Virus record (IMG/VR): IMGVR_UViG_3300032308_000833
Span: 16,763-80,762 of that record
DNA: 64,000 bases
Origin: a virus
Reading direction: 5' to 3' (one strand)
The notes beneath the pieces were generated by a model. The model worked only from the letters and a program-made list of their open reading frames with translations. It searched no databases and was not told the DNA's origin. Below, piece after piece: positions 1,821 through 63,816 of this stretch (positions are counted from its first letter, which is position 1; each line of letters starts with the position of its first letter). Both the position numbers and the translations under genes were made by a program.

Positions 1821-1849
1821 AGTATAACATCTATTTGCCAGTAAGTCAA
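1821..1849 (-). promoter_or_regulatory. Promoter of the lysozyme gene, TTGACT-17-TATACT
   Basis: On the minus strand TTGACT (1849-1844) and TATACT (1826-1821) are separated by exactly 17 bases. The same two hexamers at the same spacing precede the HslV-like gene at 63045-63073. Confidence 0.75.
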
Positions 1850-8168: not shown

Positions 8169-9428
8169 ATGGCAATAGGTAAAAAAGTAGGTAAGAAGTC
8201 TCAAGGTTCTAATGACTTTTTAATGCCAAGAACACCAACTATTGGAACAGCAACAAACGTTGGAACAGGGCGGGCATTTAACAATGGTGCAGCCACAGTA
8301 ACATTTACAGCAGATCCTACCTATGCAGCAGACTCTTTTACAGTTACATCAACTCCAGGTAGTTTTACAGCAACAGGAGCATCATCTCCAATTACAGTTA
8401 CAGGATTACAATCAGATACAGCATATACTTTTAAAGTAACTGCAACAAATACTTATGGAACATCAGGTGAATCAGAGGCATCTAACTCTATTACAGCAAC
8501 AACTGTTCCAGCAACACCAGCAGCACCAAGTGCATCATCACCAAACGCTGATCAAGATGTAATTTCATGGGATGCACCAGCAAACGGTGGATCAGTAATA
8601 ACAAATTATCATTGGCAATCAAATGAAGCCCCTGTTAAAGAAGGAGATACTGCGACTACGCTTAACGCAACAGTAGGGCAAGAAGCAGGAACAGCACAAC
8701 GGTACAAAGTTTATGCAACTAACGCTAACGGAAACTCAGAATATTCTGCATTATCAGCAGAAGTAACAACAACATTTTCTTTCGTACCTTTTGGTGTGTT
8801 TGGTTTTTCACCATTTACAGTGTTTGGTTTCTCTCCGTTTAACGTGTTTGGTTTTTCACCATTTAACGTATTTGGTTTCTCACCATTCAGAGTATTTGGT
8901 TTCTCACCATTCAGAGTATTTGGTTTCTCACCAACTACATACTGTGTAGATGAAGATGCACCAGTTCTTACAACAACTGGAAATAAAAAAGCAAAAGACA
9001 TTGAACTTGGAGATAAATTAATTGTAAAAGCATTTGAAGAAATGCCAGTTGGAGATCTTTACAAAATTGTACTTTGGAAAAAAAGAGGTAACCTAACAAA
9101 TTACAGAGAATTAGAAGCAGATGTAACTAAGATTACACCAACAGTAGTACATGAAACAGTTATGTTTAATAATGATCCAAACATGAGATTTTCATTACTA
9201 GAAGATATGTTTGTAATTAAAAATGGTTTATATGGTTTTGTTTCTTCAAGAGAAATTAAACCTGGAGATAAAATTATTACAAGAGATTCTTTGATGGTAG
9301 TAGAAACTGTTGAAATAGTTAACGAAACAAGAACTGTTTACAGTTTTGGAAGATATCCAATTGGATTAGTTATAGCAGGAGGATTAGTTCATTATAACGA
9401 CTACTCTCCTTCAGAAATACCAGATTAA
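8169..9428 (+). CDS. Fibronectin-III, octapeptide-repeat, Hint-domain virion protein
   Basis: A 419-residue paralog of the protein at 286. After a basic start, residues about 20-115 and 116-200 are two fibronectin type III-like domains (VTGLQSDTAYTFKVTATN; then YKVYATNANGNSEYSA). Residues 205-255 are FSPFNVFG octapeptides. Cys259 opens a Hint domain (C-VDEDAPVLTTTGNKKAKDIELGD, EIKPGDKII, VYSF...GGLVHYN). The block B position that normally holds T-x-x-H reads L-L-E-D, so the His is Asp as in the paralog. Cys before the repeats-Hint border is kept. The two proteins share the repeat and Hint parts but differ in their N-terminal adhesion domain, suggesting domain exchange. The two genes that follow encode dioxygenase-like proteins. 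Confidence 0.72.
   Translation: MAIGKKVGKKSQGSNDFLMPRTPTIGTATNVGTGRAFNNGAATVTFTADPTYAADSFTVTSTPGSFTATGASSPITVTGLQSDTAYTFKVTATNTYGTSGESEASNSITATTVPATPAAPSASSPNADQDVISWDAPANGGSVITNYHWQSNEAPVKEGDTATTLNATVGQEAGTAQRYKVYATNANGNSEYSALSAEVTTTFSFVPFGVFGFSPFTVFGFSPFNVFGFSPFNVFGFSPFRVFGFSPFRVFGFSPTTYCVDEDAPVLTTTGNKKAKDIELGDKLIVKAFEEMPVGDLYKIVLWKKRGNLTNYRELEADVTKITPTVVHETVMFNNDPNMRFSLLEDMFVIKNGLYGFVSSREIKPGDKIITRDSLMVVETVEIVNETRTVYSFGRYPIGLVIAGGLVHYNDYSPSEIPD
8781..8933 (+). repeat. 24-bp coding tandem repeats (FSPFNVFG octapeptides), second array
   Basis: Six 24-base units plus a partial unit, encoding F-[SV]-P-F-[GTNR]-V-F-G. The order of variants (G, T, N, N, R, R) parallels that of the array at 544-672 (G, N, N, N, R). 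The Cys codon of the Hint domain follows 10 bases later at 8943. Confidence 0.9.
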
Positions 9429-19235: not shown

Positions 19236-19241
19236 TATAAT
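19236..19241 (+). promoter_or_regulatory. -10 box for the protease/capsid operon
   Basis: TATAAT ends 10 bases before ATG 19252. The earlier in-frame ATG at 19240 lies inside the box, so a transcript from it would begin downstream; this favours the start at 19252. Confidence 0.5.
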
Positions 19242-19251
19242 GTATAGTACG

Positions 19252-20568
19252 ATGTCTATATTAAAAGCCCAATGGAATACTGAAGGCGAGAATGTTCGCC
19301 TATCTATGCCTTTTAGTAAGGTAGATAAAGAACGCCGCATTGTTTCAGGCTTTGCCTCATTAGATAACTTAGATCGTCAAATGGACATTGTAACTACAGA
19401 AGCCAGCATGAAGGCATTTGAAAACTTTCGAGGTAACATAAGAGAAATGCATCAACCATTAGCAGTAGGCAAAATGGTTTCATTTAAGCAAGACAAGTAT
19501 TTTGATTCAGAGTCAAAGAAATTTTATAACGGTGTTTTTGTTTCCGCTTATGTTTCTAAAGGTGCTCAAAGCACATGGGAAAAGGTTTTGGATGGTACAC
19601 TAACAGGTTTTTCTATTGGTGGCAGAATGAACAAATGGGACGACGCTTTTGATGAGAAGTTAGATTCTCAAATTAGAATTATTAAAGATTACGATCTTGT
19701 TGAATTAAGTCTTGTAGACTCTCCAGCAAATGAATTTGCAAACATTATGTCTGTTGAAAAAGTAGACGGAGTTTCAGTAATTAAAGGTGATAATACAGCC
19801 TTAGAAAATGTTTTTTGGGATTCAGAAACTGGAATTGTTATGGTTTCAGAAAATGAAAAAGAGATCAGTCCAACAACTGGTAATGAAATGAAAAATATAG
19901 GATTCGTTGAAAAAACGGATAATGAAAAAATCAATATGATAAAGTTCTTAGTCGATAGTGCTAAAGGCATTACCACTTCTAAGATTACCAAGGAGGTAAG
20001 TCCTATGACAGAAACAACAGAAGTAGTAGCAGAGATTGTTGAAAAATCTGATATTGCAGTTGAAAATGTTGAGGTTGCTCCAGAGGCAGATGCCGTAGTT
20101 GATGCTCCTGTTACAGAAGTTGTTGCAGAAGATGCACCAGCAGCGGAAACAGTTGTGGAAGCAGAAAAAGCAGACACAGTTGAAGCAGTAGCAGAAGTTA
20201 TTGAAGAAGTTGCTACAGAAGTATCTAAAGCAGACGATGTTATTGTTGAGGCAGTAACAGAAGTTAAGAATACTCTTACATCAGCCTTTAGCGATCTACT
20301 TGCAACAGTAAAGTCTTTACAGACAGAAGTTGCAGATTTAAACAAACAAGTTGCTGACACAAAGTCACAAATTGTTAATACACAAAATGCACTAGTTGAA
20401 ACAAACGGTGCAGTTAACGAGTTTGGAAAGAGAATGGAATCAGTAGAATCTGATACCGCTTTCCGAAAGTCTGGCGATCTCGGCGAGGTCGTACAGTTAC
20501 AACCAGTAATGGTTGAGAAATCCCTATGGGGCGGACGTTTCCTCAAAACAGCCGATCTATTCAGATAG
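19252..20568 (+). CDS. Prohead protease fused to scaffold-like domain
   Basis: A 438-residue protein. Residues 1-165 are an HK97/XkdF-type prohead protease: VSGFASLDNLDRQMDIV, catalytic His67 (REMHQPL), catalytic Ser121 (LTGFSIGG) and LVELSLVDSPANE. This herpesvirus-like serine protease trims the capsid and scaffold during maturation. Residues about 245-345 are a low-complexity Val/Ala/Glu stretch and 345-400 a predicted coiled coil (LATVKSLQTEVADLNKQV), as in delta/scaffold domains. Protease and scaffold are thus one polypeptide, upstream of the capsid gene. An internal AAGGAGG-preceded ATG near 20005 could make the scaffold part alone. Start chosen from the -10 box. Confidence 0.87.
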   Translation: MSILKAQWNTEGENVRLSMPFSKVDKERRIVSGFASLDNLDRQMDIVTTEASMKAFENFRGNIREMHQPLAVGKMVSFKQDKYFDSESKKFYNGVFVSAYVSKGAQSTWEKVLDGTLTGFSIGGRMNKWDDAFDEKLDSQIRIIKDYDLVELSLVDSPANEFANIMSVEKVDGVSVIKGDNTALENVFWDSETGIVMVSENEKEISPTTGNEMKNIGFVEKTDNEKINMIKFLVDSAKGITTSKITKEVSPMTETTEVVAEIVEKSDIAVENVEVAPEADAVVDAPVTEVVAEDAPAAETVVEAEKADTVEAVAEVIEEVATEVSKADDVIVEAVTEVKNTLTSAFSDLLATVKSLQTEVADLNKQVADTKSQIVNTQNALVETNGAVNEFGKRMESVESDTAFRKSGDLGEVVQLQPVMVEKSLWGGRFLKTADLFR

Positions 20569-41437: not shown

Positions 41438-41928
41438 TACCTGGCAATAAAAAGGTTTGGTTTTTAAACGGTGAGTTAGTAAGGATTCATCATTTTAATA
41501 AATCTAATGGAATCATGTCTGTATATAATATTAATAAAGATAGAATTGAAAGTTGTTTAATTTCTGATTTTAAAAATAAAAGAGAACGTGCATATACAGT
41601 TAGAGAAACGGCTGAACTAGTAAATAGACATAAAAAATATATGCCATCTTTAATGAGACGAGGGATTATACCATTCCCTACTGGATCACAAAAAGGCGGG
41701 GCACGAGGATGGCAAGTAAGATCATATTATTCAGAATCACAAGTAAAAGACATACGTGATATACTTGCTTCGTACCATATAGGTAGACCAAGGAAAGATA
41801 ATTTAATTACAAATGATATTACTCCTAGTACGCAAGAGTTGACTAGAAGAATGGGTGATGGTATACTTAAATATACGAAGACAGAAGACGGTAGATTTAT
41901 TCCAATTTGGAACGAATCGATTAACTAG
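41383..41928 (+). CDS. MerR-type helix-turn-helix DNA-binding protein
   Basis: A 181-residue protein. The segment YTVRETAELVNRHKKYMPSLMRRGIIPFP (about 75-103) is a winged-helix pattern of MerR/excisionase type, followed by GWQVRSYYSESQVKDIRDIL. It probably binds DNA as a transcription regulator at the boundary between late structural and replication genes. AGGAGG lies 4 bases before ATG 41383. An in-frame ATG at 41323 is buried in the upstream gene and lacks a site, so 41383 is chosen. Confidence 0.65.
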   Translation: MAVRKGNLESEAYNLAPVIPGNKKVWFLNGELVRIHHFNKSNGIMSVYNINKDRIESCLISDFKNKRERAYTVRETAELVNRHKKYMPSLMRRGIIPFPTGSQKGGARGWQVRSYYSESQVKDIRDILASYHIGRPRKDNLITNDITPSTQELTRRMGDGILKYTKTEDGRFIPIWNESIN

Positions 41929-50277: not shown

Positions 50278-50817
50278 ATGGAAAATATAGTATTTAATGA
50301 TTTATTTACAAGAAAAGAACGTGAAGATCTTGCTCTTATGGTTCAACACGAAATGGAGACTAGACCACACGTTTCAATTTTAGTAGATGAAAATGGTTCT
50401 TTAATAAATCAAGATAATGTAGTAATGATCGACAGAGATAATGGCAGATTGATGGCTGAAATACTTCCAACACCAGAATACATTATTGAAAAATTAAAAA
50501 CAATAATTAAAGAACAATATGGAGATTGTGAATATATAAGTACAGTCTATGCAGAATATTCTTCAAACACAGGAAATCCAAAACTTAATGGTCACTTTGA
50601 TTCAAAACTTGACACAACTTTAATTGATTACCAATTGGCGTCCACTACAAAATGGCCAATTACAATAGATGGAACAAACTATGAACTAGTAGATAATCAG
50701 GGAGTTCTTCTTAGACCATTCAAGCAGTATCATGGAAGACCACCAAAAACTTTTCAAAAAGATGATTATGTAAACATGTTATTCTTTTTCTTTCAAAAAC
50801 CAACAAACAGAGAATAG
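50278..50817 (+). CDS. 2OG-Fe(II) dioxygenase-like protein, array gene 1
   Basis: A 179-residue protein with candidate iron ligands H106-x-D108 (NGHFDSK) and distal H152. The distal site reads YHGRP, giving the H-x-R pattern (Arg154) shared by all five array proteins, while no Arg occurs ten residues after His as in standard family members. Between them, WPITIDGTNYELVDNQGVLL follows the usual jelly-roll order. It is the most divergent array member and lacks the W of HWR. Substrate unknown. It is leaderless. Confidence 0.62.
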   Translation: MENIVFNDLFTRKEREDLALMVQHEMETRPHVSILVDENGSLINQDNVVMIDRDNGRLMAEILPTPEYIIEKLKTIIKEQYGDCEYISTVYAEYSSNTGNPKLNGHFDSKLDTTLIDYQLASTTKWPITIDGTNYELVDNQGVLLRPFKQYHGRPPKTFQKDDYVNMLFFFFQKPTNRE

Positions 50818-50830
50818 GATTATATAAAAA

Positions 50831-51547
50831 ATGTTTGATCCAGCAGTATATAGTGAAGAGTTAGAAAATGCTTTTGTAGATAATAAAGATTTTAAAGTGT
50901 TTTCAATTAAAGATGTTTTTCTTGAAGAACATATTAACACATTAAAGCATCATTATAAAAGGTTTGAGCATTACTATATAACAGTTGGGTATGCTGGTCA
51001 AAGAAAATGGGTTGTTCGTTATCCAGAAATAACTAAAAGACTTGAAGAAGTGGTCAGCAAAGGTCTTGGAGAAAAGGTAATATTAGTTGATGTAGAATTA
51101 TGTGTATATTCTCCAGAGTTTGGGTATGAGCCAAAACTTTATCCACATTTTGATAATCATGCTAAAGATGGACAAAGAGTAACAGTGTCAGTTGAAATTG
51201 ATTCAAATATTGATTGGAACCTAGTTATTGAAAATAAAAAATATAAAACAAACTTAAATGAAGGAGTGGTTTTCTCTGGTACCCAACAGATACACTGGAG
51301 AGAAAAATATAATTTTAACAAATCAGATTATTGTGCTGCTATTTTTGCACATTTTAAATATGAAAATAATAGACCACTAAGCCCTAATCAAGAAAATATT
51401 ATGCGTTACTGGGAATTAAAATATCAAAAAGAATCAGGAATTGCTTTGGATCCTATTGGTTTATCAGAACACACATTGAATAATTGGGGCGGCAAAGATA
51501 GTTGGGAAGCAAAAGTAAATGAAGTTTTTCAGGAAGGAAAACAATAA
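50831..51547 (+). CDS. 2OG-Fe(II) dioxygenase-like protein, array gene 2
   Basis: A 238-residue protein. FGYEPKLYPHFDNHAKDGQR gives H106-x-D108; FSGTQQIHWRE gives H155 and R157. A C-terminal extension of about 50 residues (MRYWELKYQKESGIAL, LSEHTLNNWGG) is shared in part by array gene 3. It is 46-50% similar by eye to gene 3 across the core. The start follows the previous stop by 13 bases without a strong ribosome site. Confidence 0.68.
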   Translation: MFDPAVYSEELENAFVDNKDFKVFSIKDVFLEEHINTLKHHYKRFEHYYITVGYAGQRKWVVRYPEITKRLEEVVSKGLGEKVILVDVELCVYSPEFGYEPKLYPHFDNHAKDGQRVTVSVEIDSNIDWNLVIENKKYKTNLNEGVVFSGTQQIHWREKYNFNKSDYCAAIFAHFKYENNRPLSPNQENIMRYWELKYQKESGIALDPIGLSEHTLNNWGGKDSWEAKVNEVFQEGKQ

Positions 51548-52194
51548 TGCCATTTGATCCAGCAATATATAATGAAGAGTTAGAAAAAGGAATTGTACCA
51601 AATAGAGATTTTGAAGTATTTGTTTACAAAAATATGATTACTGAAGAACATAATAAAATTATCTATCAGGAAGTTGAAAGAGTAAAGAATAACTTTATTA
51701 CTCAAGATTTTGTTGGACACAGGGCTTGGAATTTTTATAATGAAGAGTTACAAAAATATTTAACTACCTGGATAAGCAATCTTTTGGGTGAACAAATGAT
51801 TTTAAGTGAATTATCTTTTGCAAGATATTCTCGCGAGTATGGTTATGAACCAAAACTATTTCCACATTTTGATACTCATGAAAAAGATGGACAAAGAATA
51901 ACCCTTGACATACAATTAAATGCTACTACACCTTGGGCAGTTGTAGTAGAAGGTGAGTCTTTTAATTTAGAAAATAACGATGGTTTAGTTTTTGCTGGAA
52001 CTCAGCAAGTACATTGGAGAGAAAATAAAACATTGTCAGATACAGATAAAGTAGATATGTTATTTGTTCATTTTAAATATGCTGATCATAGACCTTGGAG
52101 CAAAGATCAAAAGTTAATTTTAGAATATTGGTCTCACAGGTTTAGAGAAAAAACTGGCATAGAAAGACAACCAGTACCAGTAGAGATAAAGTAA
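51547..52194 (+). CDS. 2OG-Fe(II) dioxygenase-like protein, array gene 3
   Basis: A 215-residue protein, nearest paralog of array gene 2: both start FDPAxYxEELE and have YGYEPKL[FY]PHFDxHxKDGQR, then GTQQ[VI]HWRE. Iron ligands are H107, D109 and H156, with R158 after the distal His. It begins in the stop codon of gene 2 (TAATG). The strong likeness implies recent tandem duplication. Confidence 0.7.
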   Translation: MPFDPAIYNEELEKGIVPNRDFEVFVYKNMITEEHNKIIYQEVERVKNNFITQDFVGHRAWNFYNEELQKYLTTWISNLLGEQMILSELSFARYSREYGYEPKLFPHFDTHEKDGQRITLDIQLNATTPWAVVVEGESFNLENNDGLVFAGTQQVHWRENKTLSDTDKVDMLFVHFKYADHRPWSKDQKLILEYWSHRFREKTGIERQPVPVEIK

Positions 52195-52198
52195 GCAA

Positions 52199-52906
52199 AT
52201 GAATTATAAAGATGCTCCTAACGTAGTTGTAGAAAACTTTTTTACAGAAGATCAAATAAAAAGATTATATGATATTGTAGAAAATACAAATCATACAACT
52301 TTTCAACAATACCTAAGTTATATAAGTTGGCACATACAATTACCACAAGACATTATAGATGAGGTTACTAAGACTGCAGAAAGTATTGTCGGAGAGGGCT
52401 TAGTCCTTTCTGAATATAACTTTTCTAGATATCAGAAAATCAAAATGTCAGAAGACATTTTAGAGAAAAATTTAATACTTGCTGAATACGATGTTTTAAA
52501 AGATCAAGTTACAGTTTCCGATGATAAGAAAATTTTGTTTAACCCACTTCTTTATCCACACATAGACGAAGCCTTTGCTGGTAAAAGATTTACAGTAGAC
52601 GTACAACTTAAGTCAAATGTTTCGTGGGACATAGTGGTTGACAACTGGAAGTCTGAACAATTATTTAATCTAAAGGATAATCAAGCCTTAACATTTTCTG
52701 GCACACATCAAGTTCATTGGAGACCAAAGAAAGAATTTAAAGATGAAGAATTTTTAGAAGCATTGTTCTTACATTTTGTACCAAAATATGACAACTTTAA
52801 GTCTGAAGAAGAGAAAAAAGAAATATTAAGTAGAAGAGATTACAAGTATGATATGTGGGATCTAACGCCAGGCAATAGTAAAAACCCAATGAAAGTATTA
52901 AACTAA
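52199..52906 (+). CDS. 2OG-Fe(II) dioxygenase-like protein, array gene 4
   Basis: A 235-residue protein. NPLLYPHIDEAFAGKRFTVD gives H121-x-D123, and FSGTHQVHWRP gives H173 and R175. Residues 80-115 hold an insertion not present in genes 2 and 3. The core strands VDVQLKSNVSWDIVVDN match those of the paralogs. No other domain. TAATG coupling to array gene 5. Confidence 0.66.
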   Translation: MNYKDAPNVVVENFFTEDQIKRLYDIVENTNHTTFQQYLSYISWHIQLPQDIIDEVTKTAESIVGEGLVLSEYNFSRYQKIKMSEDILEKNLILAEYDVLKDQVTVSDDKKILFNPLLYPHIDEAFAGKRFTVDVQLKSNVSWDIVVDNWKSEQLFNLKDNQALTFSGTHQVHWRPKKEFKDEEFLEALFLHFVPKYDNFKSEEEKKEILSRRDYKYDMWDLTPGNSKNPMKVLN

Positions 52907-53682
52907 TGACCAACATACATAATTTTTTAACAGACTTTAATAAATACAACACAAAACTTCCGTTTTATGTAGAAAAACCTTTTACTGAAAGTCAATCAAA
53001 ATTATTAAGAGATGTTATTGAAGCAAATAGAAGTATAGTTGTTGACGATCTTGTTGAATCAGAGTATGAAATAATATCTGCAATGAATAGATTTTATCCT
53101 AAAAAAATAAAAATAATGTCAAGAGAGTTGATAGAGTTTGAATGTCCAGAAGAAATAGAAGACGTAATGAACTCATATGCTAAGCCAGTTTATAAAGAAG
53201 AAATAAAATTATGTCATTATAATTATATTAAATATGATATGCAATATGGTGATAGAAAGTACGCACCATCTCTTCCACCTCACATTGATGCTGATGAAAA
53301 CTTAGTTACTTTTAATTATCAAATTGGCGGTAACGTAGATGACTGGCAACTAGTAATAGATGGTGAACATTATGATCTTAAAAATGGGGATGCTATGGTA
53401 TTTAGTGCAGTTAATCAAGTGCATTGGAGACCAAAAAGACATTGGAAGCCTGGAGAGTATGTTGAGATAGTTAGTTTTGATTACTGTCCTCCAGATAATT
53501 ATAGATTTACAGGAGATGAAAATCCACTGGACAATGAGCGTTATCCTGAAGTAAGAAATAAATATATTGATGATTTAAATCAACATCCAAGGTTTCAACA
53601 AAGTTGGATACAGTATCACGAAGAAGGCAAAAAAATAGGAATAATTGAAGATGACAATGGAGGCTTTGGTTTTGGAAACTGA
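52906..53682 (+). CDS. 2OG-Fe(II) dioxygenase-like protein, array gene 5
   Basis: A 258-residue protein. APSLPPHIDADENLVTFNYQ gives H126-x-D128; FSAVNQVHWRPKR gives H173 and R175. The C-terminal 60 residues are polar and unlike the other members (NPLDNERYPEVRNKYIDDL). It begins in the stop of array gene 4 and its end overlaps the next gene. Motif complete, substrate unknown. Confidence 0.66.
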   Translation: MTNIHNFLTDFNKYNTKLPFYVEKPFTESQSKLLRDVIEANRSIVVDDLVESEYEIISAMNRFYPKKIKIMSRELIEFECPEEIEDVMNSYAKPVYKEEIKLCHYNYIKYDMQYGDRKYAPSLPPHIDADENLVTFNYQIGGNVDDWQLVIDGEHYDLKNGDAMVFSAVNQVHWRPKRHWKPGEYVEIVSFDYCPPDNYRFTGDENPLDNERYPEVRNKYIDDLNQHPRFQQSWIQYHEEGKKIGIIEDDNGGFGFGN

Positions 53683-62069: not shown

Positions 62070-62353
62070 TGGCTAAAGAAACAAAATTAGATGACGAAAA
62101 GGCAATGGGAGCAATCAGTGGTATTAAAAATATTCTACTCAGAATAATTGCTGTATTTGCAGCCAACGGTCTTGGAGTTATCGGTGCTGGTGCAATCATT
62201 GGTATTGATACATTAAGTGCAATCATTCTTGCAGGAACACTAGGTGTTGCTACAGTAGTTGAAAAACTAGCAAGAGGATTTATTGATGACGGAAGATTAA
62301 GCATTGATGAAATCAATAATGCATTTAACTCAGTAGACAAAAAGTCTAAGTAG
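62069..62353 (+). CDS. Holin-like membrane protein
   Basis: A 94-residue protein with two hydrophobic helices (about 21-42, IIAVFAANGLGVIGAGAIIG; 48-64, LSAIILAGTLGVATVV) and a charged C-terminal tail ARGFIDDGRLSIDEINNAF, a pattern seen in actinophage holins. It would form the membrane lesion that lets the muralytic enzyme act. Start at 62069 (TAATG overlap) rather than an upstream ATG in another gene. Its end overlaps the convergent methyltransferase gene by 8 bases. The muralytic gene is not adjacent here. Confidence 0.68.
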   Translation: MAKETKLDDEKAMGAISGIKNILLRIIAVFAANGLGVIGAGAIIGIDTLSAIILAGTLGVATVVEKLARGFIDDGRLSIDEINNAFNSVDKKSK

Positions 62354-63026
62354 GTCTACCTATTATAATAACGGATTCTTTATTGAGTTCGTTATTATGA
62401 TATTTTATAAGCATTTCTTTTACCGTGCATCTGAAAATTGTTTCAGTTGGCATTGTAAGATCTTGAGCATAAATACAGTGTTTGCTTTCACCAAAAACTT
62501 CCAGGGTATCGTTTAATACTTGCCCAATAATACTTGGAACACATAAGAATACTATTGGATAATCAATGTCTATAAACTTATTAAGAAATGCTTTATTCTC
62601 ATCGCTATCTTTAGGGTAACAACCATATATAAATCCACCATGTGCCATTCCTGATACAACTAGTGAGGTGATCACTGAATTAGGTCCAGGTATAGCAGTT
62701 ACCTGTATGTTGTGCATTAGTGCAACATTTGCATACCCACTACCTGGGTCATGGAAACCAGCATTGCCTTGGTCAGATAATATTAGTACGTTTTTATTAT
62801 TTAATAATATATCAACTATGTTGTTAATTGCATTTATTTCTTCACAACTTGGTATTTCTATGATACGTGCTTTTGTCTCAATTTCTAAATCAGACAACAG
62901 TTTGTTAAATTTTTCAAGGCTTTCTACAGCAATTACATCATGATCAATGATGCTTCTAATAGTCCTAAAAGATATGTCCGATATGTTACCAATATGTACA
63001 GATCCCAGGGTCAATAGTCCAGCCAT
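62346..63026 (-). CDS. rsmI: RsmI-like SAM-dependent methyltransferase
   Basis: A 226-residue protein of the tetrapyrrole methylase fold, closest in pattern to RsmI, the 16S rRNA 2'-O-methyltransferase of C1402. LTLGSVHIGNISDISFRTI matches the family opening (VATPIGNLxDIT); LSDQGNAGFHDPGSGYANV corresponds to SDAGTPxISDPG, and AIPGPNSVITSLVVSGM to PLPGPSAxxTALxxSG, the SAM-binding loops. The C-terminal domain of bacterial RsmI is shortened. It is transcribed opposite to its neighbours. A longer frame starting at 63182 is rejected because a leaderless promoter ends 7 bases before ATG 63026, where the family start is. Target RNA is inferred. Confidence 0.75.
   Translation of the reverse strand: MAGLLTLGSVHIGNISDISFRTIRSIIDHDVIAVESLEKFNKLLSDLEIETKARIIEIPSCEEINAINNIVDILLNNKNVLILSDQGNAGFHDPGSGYANVALMHNIQVTAIPGPNSVITSLVVSGMAHGGFIYGCYPKDSDENKAFLNKFIDIDYPIVFLCVPSIIGQVLNDTLEVFGESKHCIYAQDLTMPTETIFRCTVKEMLIKYHNNELNKESVIIIGRPT
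62365..62398 (-). other. Inverted repeat at the convergent gene end
   Basis: A perfect 9-bp inverted repeat (ATAATAACG / CGTTATTAT) with a 16-base loop lies in the last codons of the methyltransferase gene, just after the holin stop. It could weakly terminate holin-operon transcription. It is AT-rich. Confidence 0.3.
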
Positions 63027-63033
63027 ATATAGC

Positions 63034-63042
63034 AGTATAGCA
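63034..63042 (-). promoter_or_regulatory. Extended -10 promoter, leaderless start for the methyltransferase
   Basis: Read on the minus strand, TGCTATACT (63042-63034) ends 7 bases before ATG 63026. It lies only 2 bases from the -35 of the opposite promoter at 63045-63073, so binding at one may exclude the other. Confidence 0.65.
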
Positions 63043-63044
63043 TG

Positions 63045-63073
63045 TTGACTATAAAAATGATAGATGGTATACT
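63045..63073 (+). promoter_or_regulatory. Promoter of the HslV-like gene, TTGACT-17-TATACT
   Basis: TTGACT (63045-63050), a 17-base spacer and TATACT (63068-63073), the same pair at the same spacing as the lysozyme promoter. The transcript start near 63080 leaves a short leader with AGAGG (63092-63096) before TTG 63103. Confidence 0.75.
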
Positions 63074-63102
63074 TTAATAACACTATACAAAAGAGGCTTA
63101 CT

Positions 63103-63624
63103 TTGACGTGCATAGCGGTAGTTAGACAAGAAAATAAAATGTTTATGGCTGGTGACAGAGGTGCATCAGATGAAAACAGCATGCTTACCTTAAAGGCACC
63201 AAAGGTTTGGAAAACTGGTCAATACCTAATAGGATACGCTGGCACCATGGATGGTGAAAGAATAAGATTAAATTTTAAGCCACCTTTACCAGAAGGTAAC
63301 TTAGATAGATTTATGTACACAAAATTTTTAATATCACTAAGAGATTTCTATGACAGATGGTGGGTTGACGTTTCTAAGGACTCAGACTTTGGAATGATAA
63401 TTTGTGTTAAAGGTAGAATCTTTGAACACAGTGCTGTAGATATGTCACTAACAGAATATGATTTAGATTATTTAGCAATGGGCTCAGCATCAGAGTTTGC
63501 ATTAGGATCACTTTATTCTACTCAAAAACAAAAGAATGGAAGAAACAGAGTTATTCAAGCAGTAGGTGCTGCCATTAATTTTTCAACATCTTGCACTGGT
63601 CCTATTGACACGGTAAGCATCTAG
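63103..63624 (+). CDS. HslV / proteasome-beta-like threonine peptidase
   Basis: A 173-residue protein of the Ntn-hydrolase peptidase family. With TTG 63103 as start, Met removal exposes Thr1: T-CIAVVRQ. Numbering from it, AGD has Asp17 and KAPK has Lys33, exactly the catalytic positions of HslV and the 20S beta subunit. GYAGT near 43-47 matches the oxyanion-loop GFAGG, and AMGSAS holds Ser127, matching the IGSGG serine of HslV. The mature length of 172 equals that of HslV (about 175). Longer ATG starts at 63064 would bury Thr1 and lie at the promoter, so TTG is chosen; AGAGG lies 6 bases before it. No HslU-type ATPase is in the window, so a host unfoldase or independent action is required. 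Substrate unknown. Confidence 0.85.
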   Translation: MTCIAVVRQENKMFMAGDRGASDENSMLTLKAPKVWKTGQYLIGYAGTMDGERIRLNFKPPLPEGNLDRFMYTKFLISLRDFYDRWWVDVSKDSDFGMIICVKGRIFEHSAVDMSLTEYDLDYLAMGSASEFALGSLYSTQKQKNGRNRVIQAVGAAINFSTSCTGPIDTVSI

Positions 63625-63627
63625 GTC

Positions 63628-63633
63628 TATACT
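63628..63633 (+). promoter_or_regulatory. Leaderless promoter for 63640
   Basis: TATACT ends 6 bases before ATG 63640, right after the HslV-like stop. The TG extension is not present. Confidence 0.6.
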
Positions 63634-63639
63634 AGATAT

Positions 63640-63816
63640 ATGAATACAGAATTTGAGATTTGGCTGTTACAAGGCATTGACAAAGGCTGGATAACTGAGC
63701 CATTTTGTAGTACTCATGATGGTGGTTTTCAATACATGAGCGAAGAAGAGCAAGAAGAGTGGGACCAAGGTGGCGACCCATGTTGTTATGTAATTAGATT
63801 AATGGAGTTATCGTAA
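63640..63816 (+). CDS. Small conserved actinophage protein
   Basis: A 58-residue protein: FEIWLLQGIDKGWITEPFC, then CSTHDGG and a Glu-rich EEEQEEWDQGGDPCCYVIRL. The WLL-GID-GWI-EPFC...HDG...EEE..WD.GGDPCC pattern recurs in many actinobacteriophages as a small acidic protein of unknown function. Its Cys and His (C23, H26, C48-C49) may bind metal. Start is fixed by the leaderless -10 box. Its stop overlaps the next ATG (TAATG). Confidence 0.75.
   Translation: MNTEFEIWLLQGIDKGWITEPFCSTHDGGFQYMSEEEQEEWDQGGDPCCYVIRLMELS

Follow-up and report, generated by a model that had tools for sequence, protein, structure and literature searches.

In 2021 Fuchs, Alva and Lupas (PMC8665760) described proteasome homologues of phages, PPH and AAH, reporting no genomic context that hinted at function and finding no Actinobacteria-specific phage with an AAH gene. 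The same proteasome-like family includes connectase, a monomeric ligase (PMC8665760). The enzyme type has been known by sequence since that year, and the phage proteasome homologues are known only as sequences. No biochemically characterised phage member was present in the literature searched, in agreement with a preliminary description of the locus analysed here, which knew of no well-characterised phage enzyme of this kind. The locus lies in a stretch of 64,000 nucleotides (hereafter the window) of the IMG/VR virus record IMGVR_UViG_3300032308_000833. What it adds is a separate phage clade, the likely actinobacterial host range of that clade, and a paired small gene.

The gene for a proteasome-like (Ntn, threonine-type) peptidase occupies positions 63103..63624 of the plus strand and opens with a TTG codon directly before the predicted catalytic Thr1. 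The product of 173 residues begins M-TCIAVVRQENKMFMAGDRGASDENSMLTLKAPKVWKTGQYLIGYAGTMDGERI... and, with Thr counted as residue 1, places Asp17 and Lys33 at proteasome spacing. The frame, its length, these three residues, a GYAG loop and a GSAS motif were all re-read as previously described. All the hallmarks of a proteasome-like Ntn threonine peptidase, Thr1 (or Ser1), Asp17, Lys33 and an oxyanion glycine near position 47, are found in the window protein. Among 96 distinct relatives aligned, Thr1 and Lys33 are invariant (96/96 each), and both Gly46, equivalent to the oxyanion glycine of position 47, and Ser127, the serine of the GSAS motif singled out beforehand, are kept in 95; the second serine of the motif (129) showed no conservation among the 96. 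Ratios of dN/dS were 0.03-0.22 for relatives with finite dS, far below 1, and the gene is under strong purifying selection.

Position 17 is Asp in 81 of the 96 relatives and Glu in the other 15. The exchange (codon 18) occurs in relatives L031-L053, L105, L116, L138 and L190, all of which retain Thr1 and Lys33, and at least two separate branches carry it, a clade of L031 type and, apart from that clade, L190. Activity could be altered or lost where Glu17 is present. Such variants would suit a role as a poison subunit or inactive homologue that binds and blocks the host 20S proteasome or ClpP, as would the detection of a 20S beta gene in 122 (~41%) of the 297 genomes sampled from the actinobacterial phylum. 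Against this role, Thr1 and Lys33 were never lost across the 96 sequences and the protein is distant from 20S beta subunits in the tree, and we consider it very unlikely. The same count, which covers the 20S beta gene and not ClpP, makes the earlier statement that most actinobacteria use a 20S proteasome too strong for the 20S proteasome alone.

A start upstream of Thr1 was looked for, and the codon before Thr proved to be ATG, TTG or GTG in all 186 peptidase loci, with the residue after the start always Thr. A Shine-Dalgarno sequence read from the DNA, AGAGG (63092..63096, plus strand), lies 6 nt before the TTG; of 121 loci, 111 have an SD-like motif ahead of the start. The ATG at 63064, which would add a 13-residue extension, was rejected because the in-frame sequence upstream shows no protein conservation among relatives and is frequently interrupted by stops. 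Given the invariant Thr after the start and the unconserved sequence before it, the mature protein very probably lacks a propeptide and begins at Thr1 once Met has been removed. Divergent from the peptidase gene, positions 62346-63182 of the minus strand encode a TP_methylase-family protein (PF00590, E=2.5e-14) that resembles the 16S rRNA methyltransferase RsmI and is without a PHROG match. Translation of this protein probably begins at a later ATG, near 63026.

To model the fold, AlphaFold2 was run on a 50-row alignment and returned the alpha-beta-beta-alpha Ntn sandwich (pLDDT 93.2, pTM 0.89), the fold whose absence would have refuted the preliminary description. In the model, six strands lead into a short and then a long helix; four more strands follow, and a single strand closes the chain after another two helices. 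Foldseek against the PDB placed BPH, the beta-proteobacterial proteasome homologue, on top (TM 0.79-0.81), followed by HslV and 20S beta subunits (~0.7 each), and a sequence profile search of the PDB likewise ranked BPH (2e-8) ahead of HslV (5e-5). Single-sequence searching barely detects the proteasome family, so the assignment rests jointly on profiles, fold and catalytic residues; single-sequence phmmer matches to DppB and to chlorophyll-binding proteins were taken as chance. In the PHROG collection, the window protein matched phrog_1040, 'peptidase HslV family', over its full length (E=8.9e-19), as did all 50 aligned members of its clade.

Relatives of the peptidase are present in 153 phage records, including T5-like, Vibrio, Aeromonas, Moorella, Ochrobactrum and Tunturiibacter phages, and number in the hundreds on IMG/VR contigs. 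With phrog_1040, these records and the 2021 descriptions of PPH and AAH, a phage copy has precedents. Of the earlier designation 'HslV/20S-proteasome-type', the proteasome-type Ntn threonine peptidase is upheld by motif, profile, fold and conservation, while the HslV part is not. The window protein scored 18.6 bits on the HslV model TIGR03692 (cut-off 157.75) and 17.1 on NF003964 (cut-off 137), its clade gave a weak and partial profile match to HslV (2.5e-10 over 119 columns), and it falls on a separate tree branch; no unfoldase was found with it. HslV identity was rejected on these grounds and, strictly speaking, the protein should not be called HslV. The same evidence weighs against the view that the protein is a phage-borne HslV/ClpQ which redirects ATP-dependent proteolysis of the host by docking on one of its unfoldases (ClpX, ClpC or Mpa/ARC). 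Overall fold and length do resemble HslV, and a host unfoldase could be borrowed where the phage has none of its own, yet with scores so far below the HslV cut-offs this arrangement seems unlikely.

Cellular homologues, retrieved with a phage-protein profile against species genomes, come mainly from rhizobia and other alpha-proteobacteria and from Streptomyces, Dactylosporangium, Actinoplanes and other actinobacteria. The distribution matches that described for AAH, and on this ground the Streptomyces/rhizobial set was treated as the probable AAH of Fuchs et al. 2021. The profile of the window clade matched this Streptomyces/rhizobial group over its full length (5.6e-48) and a Streptomyces genome at 1.2e-37. 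A maximum-likelihood tree supported the window clade (100/96) beside a mixed set of cellular and phage sequences, both apart from HslV, although long outgroup branches make the rooting uncertain. One distant IMG/VR member (L195) groups within the mixed set. No close cellular copy of the window clade was found by pattern in 84,980 species genomes, and no close relatives of phiTY18 type were found in IMG/VR. On sequence grounds, the window protein is best described as a member of an AAH-related phage clade of group I proteasome homologues. In four Rhizobium genomes (L198-L201, match start 5001), the homologue carries an in-frame stop at codon 39, after ...DRKVFRN, at the same place in all four, and similarity continues past the stop; this is possibly a shared pseudogene.

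The terminase large subunit (TerL) of the phage shares 54-55% identity over 98-99% of its length with those of Streptomyces phages (Gilson, Stanwilliamsviridae), and the major capsid protein is also closest to Streptomyces phages (39%). With both proteins pointing the same way, the host is likely actinobacterial, and the window lineage would be the nearest to filling the gap noted by Fuchs et al. for AAH in actinophages. With a structural match in BFVD from Gordonia phage Daredevil, a proteasome-fold protein had been seen in an actinophage before this one. A role in virion maturation, as a prohead protease, was weighed for the peptidase, whose gene belongs to a large tailed phage and shares a region with TerL. 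The position at which Streptomyces relatives have their annotated capsid maturation protease is taken here by the gene that precedes the major capsid gene (19240-20568), so a prohead role was rejected for the peptidase. Homologues in T5-like, Vibrio and Ochrobactrum phages moreover sit among nucleotide-metabolism and other non-structural genes, and we regard such a role as highly improbable. Elsewhere in the window, two plus-strand proteins (286-1200 and 8169-9428) carry SPFNVFGFSPF repeats, and their C-terminal ends resemble self-processing domains of Hint/intein type (CIDENTPVLTKEG...). Tandem paralogues at 50278-53682 (plus strand), and others at L387:10788-12769 (minus strand), show an HxD...H pattern of the kind that 2-oxoglutarate/Fe(II) dioxygenases have, which they may therefore be.

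The peptidase gene had been credited with a promoter of its own, and this was borne out by comparison. A sigma-70-like promoter, TTGACT-N17-TATACT, lies at 63045..63073 on the plus strand, and most relatives have it too, at about -54 to -60; a score of at least 10/12 was reached by 100 of 114 relatives, where shuffled sequences predict 3.9. The phage promoter pattern TTGACW-N17-TATAMT occurs at four sites in the window against 0.13 expected: 1821-1849 (minus strand), before a lysozyme-like gene, 41839-41867 (plus strand), before the replication module, and the promoters of the peptidase gene and of the small gene that follows it.

Immediately downstream of the peptidase gene, positions 63640..63816 of the plus strand encode a small acidic protein of 58 residues (MNTEFEIWLLQGIDKGWITEPFCSTHDGGFQYMSEEEQEEWDQGGDPCCYVIRLMELS), which has a promoter of its own, TTGACA-N17-TATACT (63605..63633, plus strand). 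The -10 box stops 6 nt short of the ATG, the usual distance in relatives too, which places the predicted start of transcription at or next to the ATG and predicts a leaderless transcript. Leaderless transcripts are common in actinobacteria. Upstream sequences of the small gene scored at least 9/12 in 57 of 65 cases (4.8 expected). The -35 box lies in the last peptidase codons, Ile-Asp-Thr, and its conservation in the window is thus partly protein-driven; L168 and L183, in which the small gene is no longer next to the peptidase gene, still have a promoter.

The small protein spans 58-73 residues across relatives, and Cys23, His26, Cys48, Trp8, Trp17 and Trp41 are invariant in 47 aligned members, with dS far exceeding dN. 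No convincing match was obtained in Pfam, PHROG or the PDB, and the protein belongs to no known family; AlphaFold2 gave a model of moderate confidence (pLDDT 85, pTM 0.57) with two helices. In peptidase loci with at least 300 nt of downstream sequence, the small gene lies within 1.5 kb downstream in 88 of 115, is more distant with inserted sequence between in 4, and was not seen in the remaining 23, some clades being without it, so it is not obligatory. Conversely, when loci were retrieved by the small gene alone, from the best 80 by similarity to the window small protein, 71 of 73 carried the peptidase, nearly always within 100 nt. Neighbours further away vary more than this pair. All paired loci belong to one phage lineage and common descent explains part of the linkage, yet the pair persists despite insertions. 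The small gene was found neither in isolated phages nor in the fetched loci of isolated phages and cellular homologues, nor, in a search run without a positive control, in 297 genomes of the phylum. In 23 relatives (for example L133), the peptidase start is followed about 0.7 kb on by the gene of a secreted protein whose beginning is subtilisin-like (SIVIIDTAVDTSLPEL).

A tight pairing with one small gene would also be expected of a specific processing enzyme or connectase-like peptide ligase acting on one target, with the neighbour as its substrate or specificity factor, and the family does contain such a ligase in connectase (PMC8665760). This explanation is not a likely one: connectase has a helical insertion between strands 3 and 4 that is absent from the window protein model, the nearest solved fold is the ring-forming BPH, and the small gene is missing from some clades.

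The reading we favour, with a probability of about 0.58, is that of a catalytically competent Ntn threonine peptidase of group I, BPH/AAH-like and not HslV, that works independently of an unfoldase and is regulated by the small protein. A phage-encoded unfoldase was rejected, as neither the record nor any of 18 relatives (88-115 kb) has an AAA or AAA_2 domain that passes the cut-off, although these are contigs not known to be complete and one could lie on missing sequence. With none found, an ATP-independent ring-shaped peptidase, by analogy with BPH, would be the simplest reading. Host RNA polymerase would transcribe the peptidase gene from its sigma-70-like promoter, and host methionine aminopeptidase would expose Thr1, the presumed nucleophile, acting with Asp17 and Lys33. 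As has been proposed for BPH, subunits would probably form a ring with its active sites shielded, and substrates that are unstructured or partly unfolded may be degraded with no dedicated AAA+ unfoldase. Of the candidates for a regulator or adaptor, the small protein, whose transcript is probably leaderless, is the strongest; in most phages of the lineage it may act with the peptidase as substrate adaptor, activator or inhibitor. More tentative, and as yet rather doubtful, is the wider proposal that a widespread actinobacterial phage lineage carries a minimal regulated proteolysis module, in which the small Cys/His protein, made from a leaderless message, selects substrates for or activates an unfoldase-independent peptidase.

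A likely actinophage lineage in which a conserved partner gene has its own promoter offers a direct handle on the role of phage proteasome-like peptidases. Should the two proteins function together, they would form a very small system of controlled proteolysis without ATP-driven unfolding.

Compared with the described systems, the window protein shares with AAH full-length homology, a similar compact length, the lack of a propeptide and no reported AAA+ partner. The window clade is nevertheless separate, sister to the AAH set and not inside it as far as rooting by distant outgroups allows, carries GDRGASD and GYAGTMDGE where AAH has GDSAGVxG and GFTTSFRMGQ, and, unlike AAH, is encoded by a likely actinophage. 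Members of phrog_1040 from isolated phages share the Met-Thr start, Asp17 and Lys33, but are at most ~34% identical to the window protein, mostly have the SxFRMGQ-type loop that the window clade lacks, and have no downstream small gene found beside them. PPH is likewise a phage-encoded group I homologue, but is described as having ~140 residues and no helix H2 (PMC8665760), whereas the window protein, compared with that description, has 173 residues and in its model two helices of 7 and 19 residues between the sheets. HslV shares Thr1, Asp17, Lys33 and length, with the serine of its GSxx motif at 124 instead of 127, and differs in its partner, as no HslU was found with the window peptidase. 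BPH (PDB 5ovs, 5ovt and 5ovu) is the best match among solved folds (TM 0.8) and the best PDB profile match at ~16-20% identity, and is a Thr1 peptidase as predicted for the window protein; it forms a double-ring assembly.
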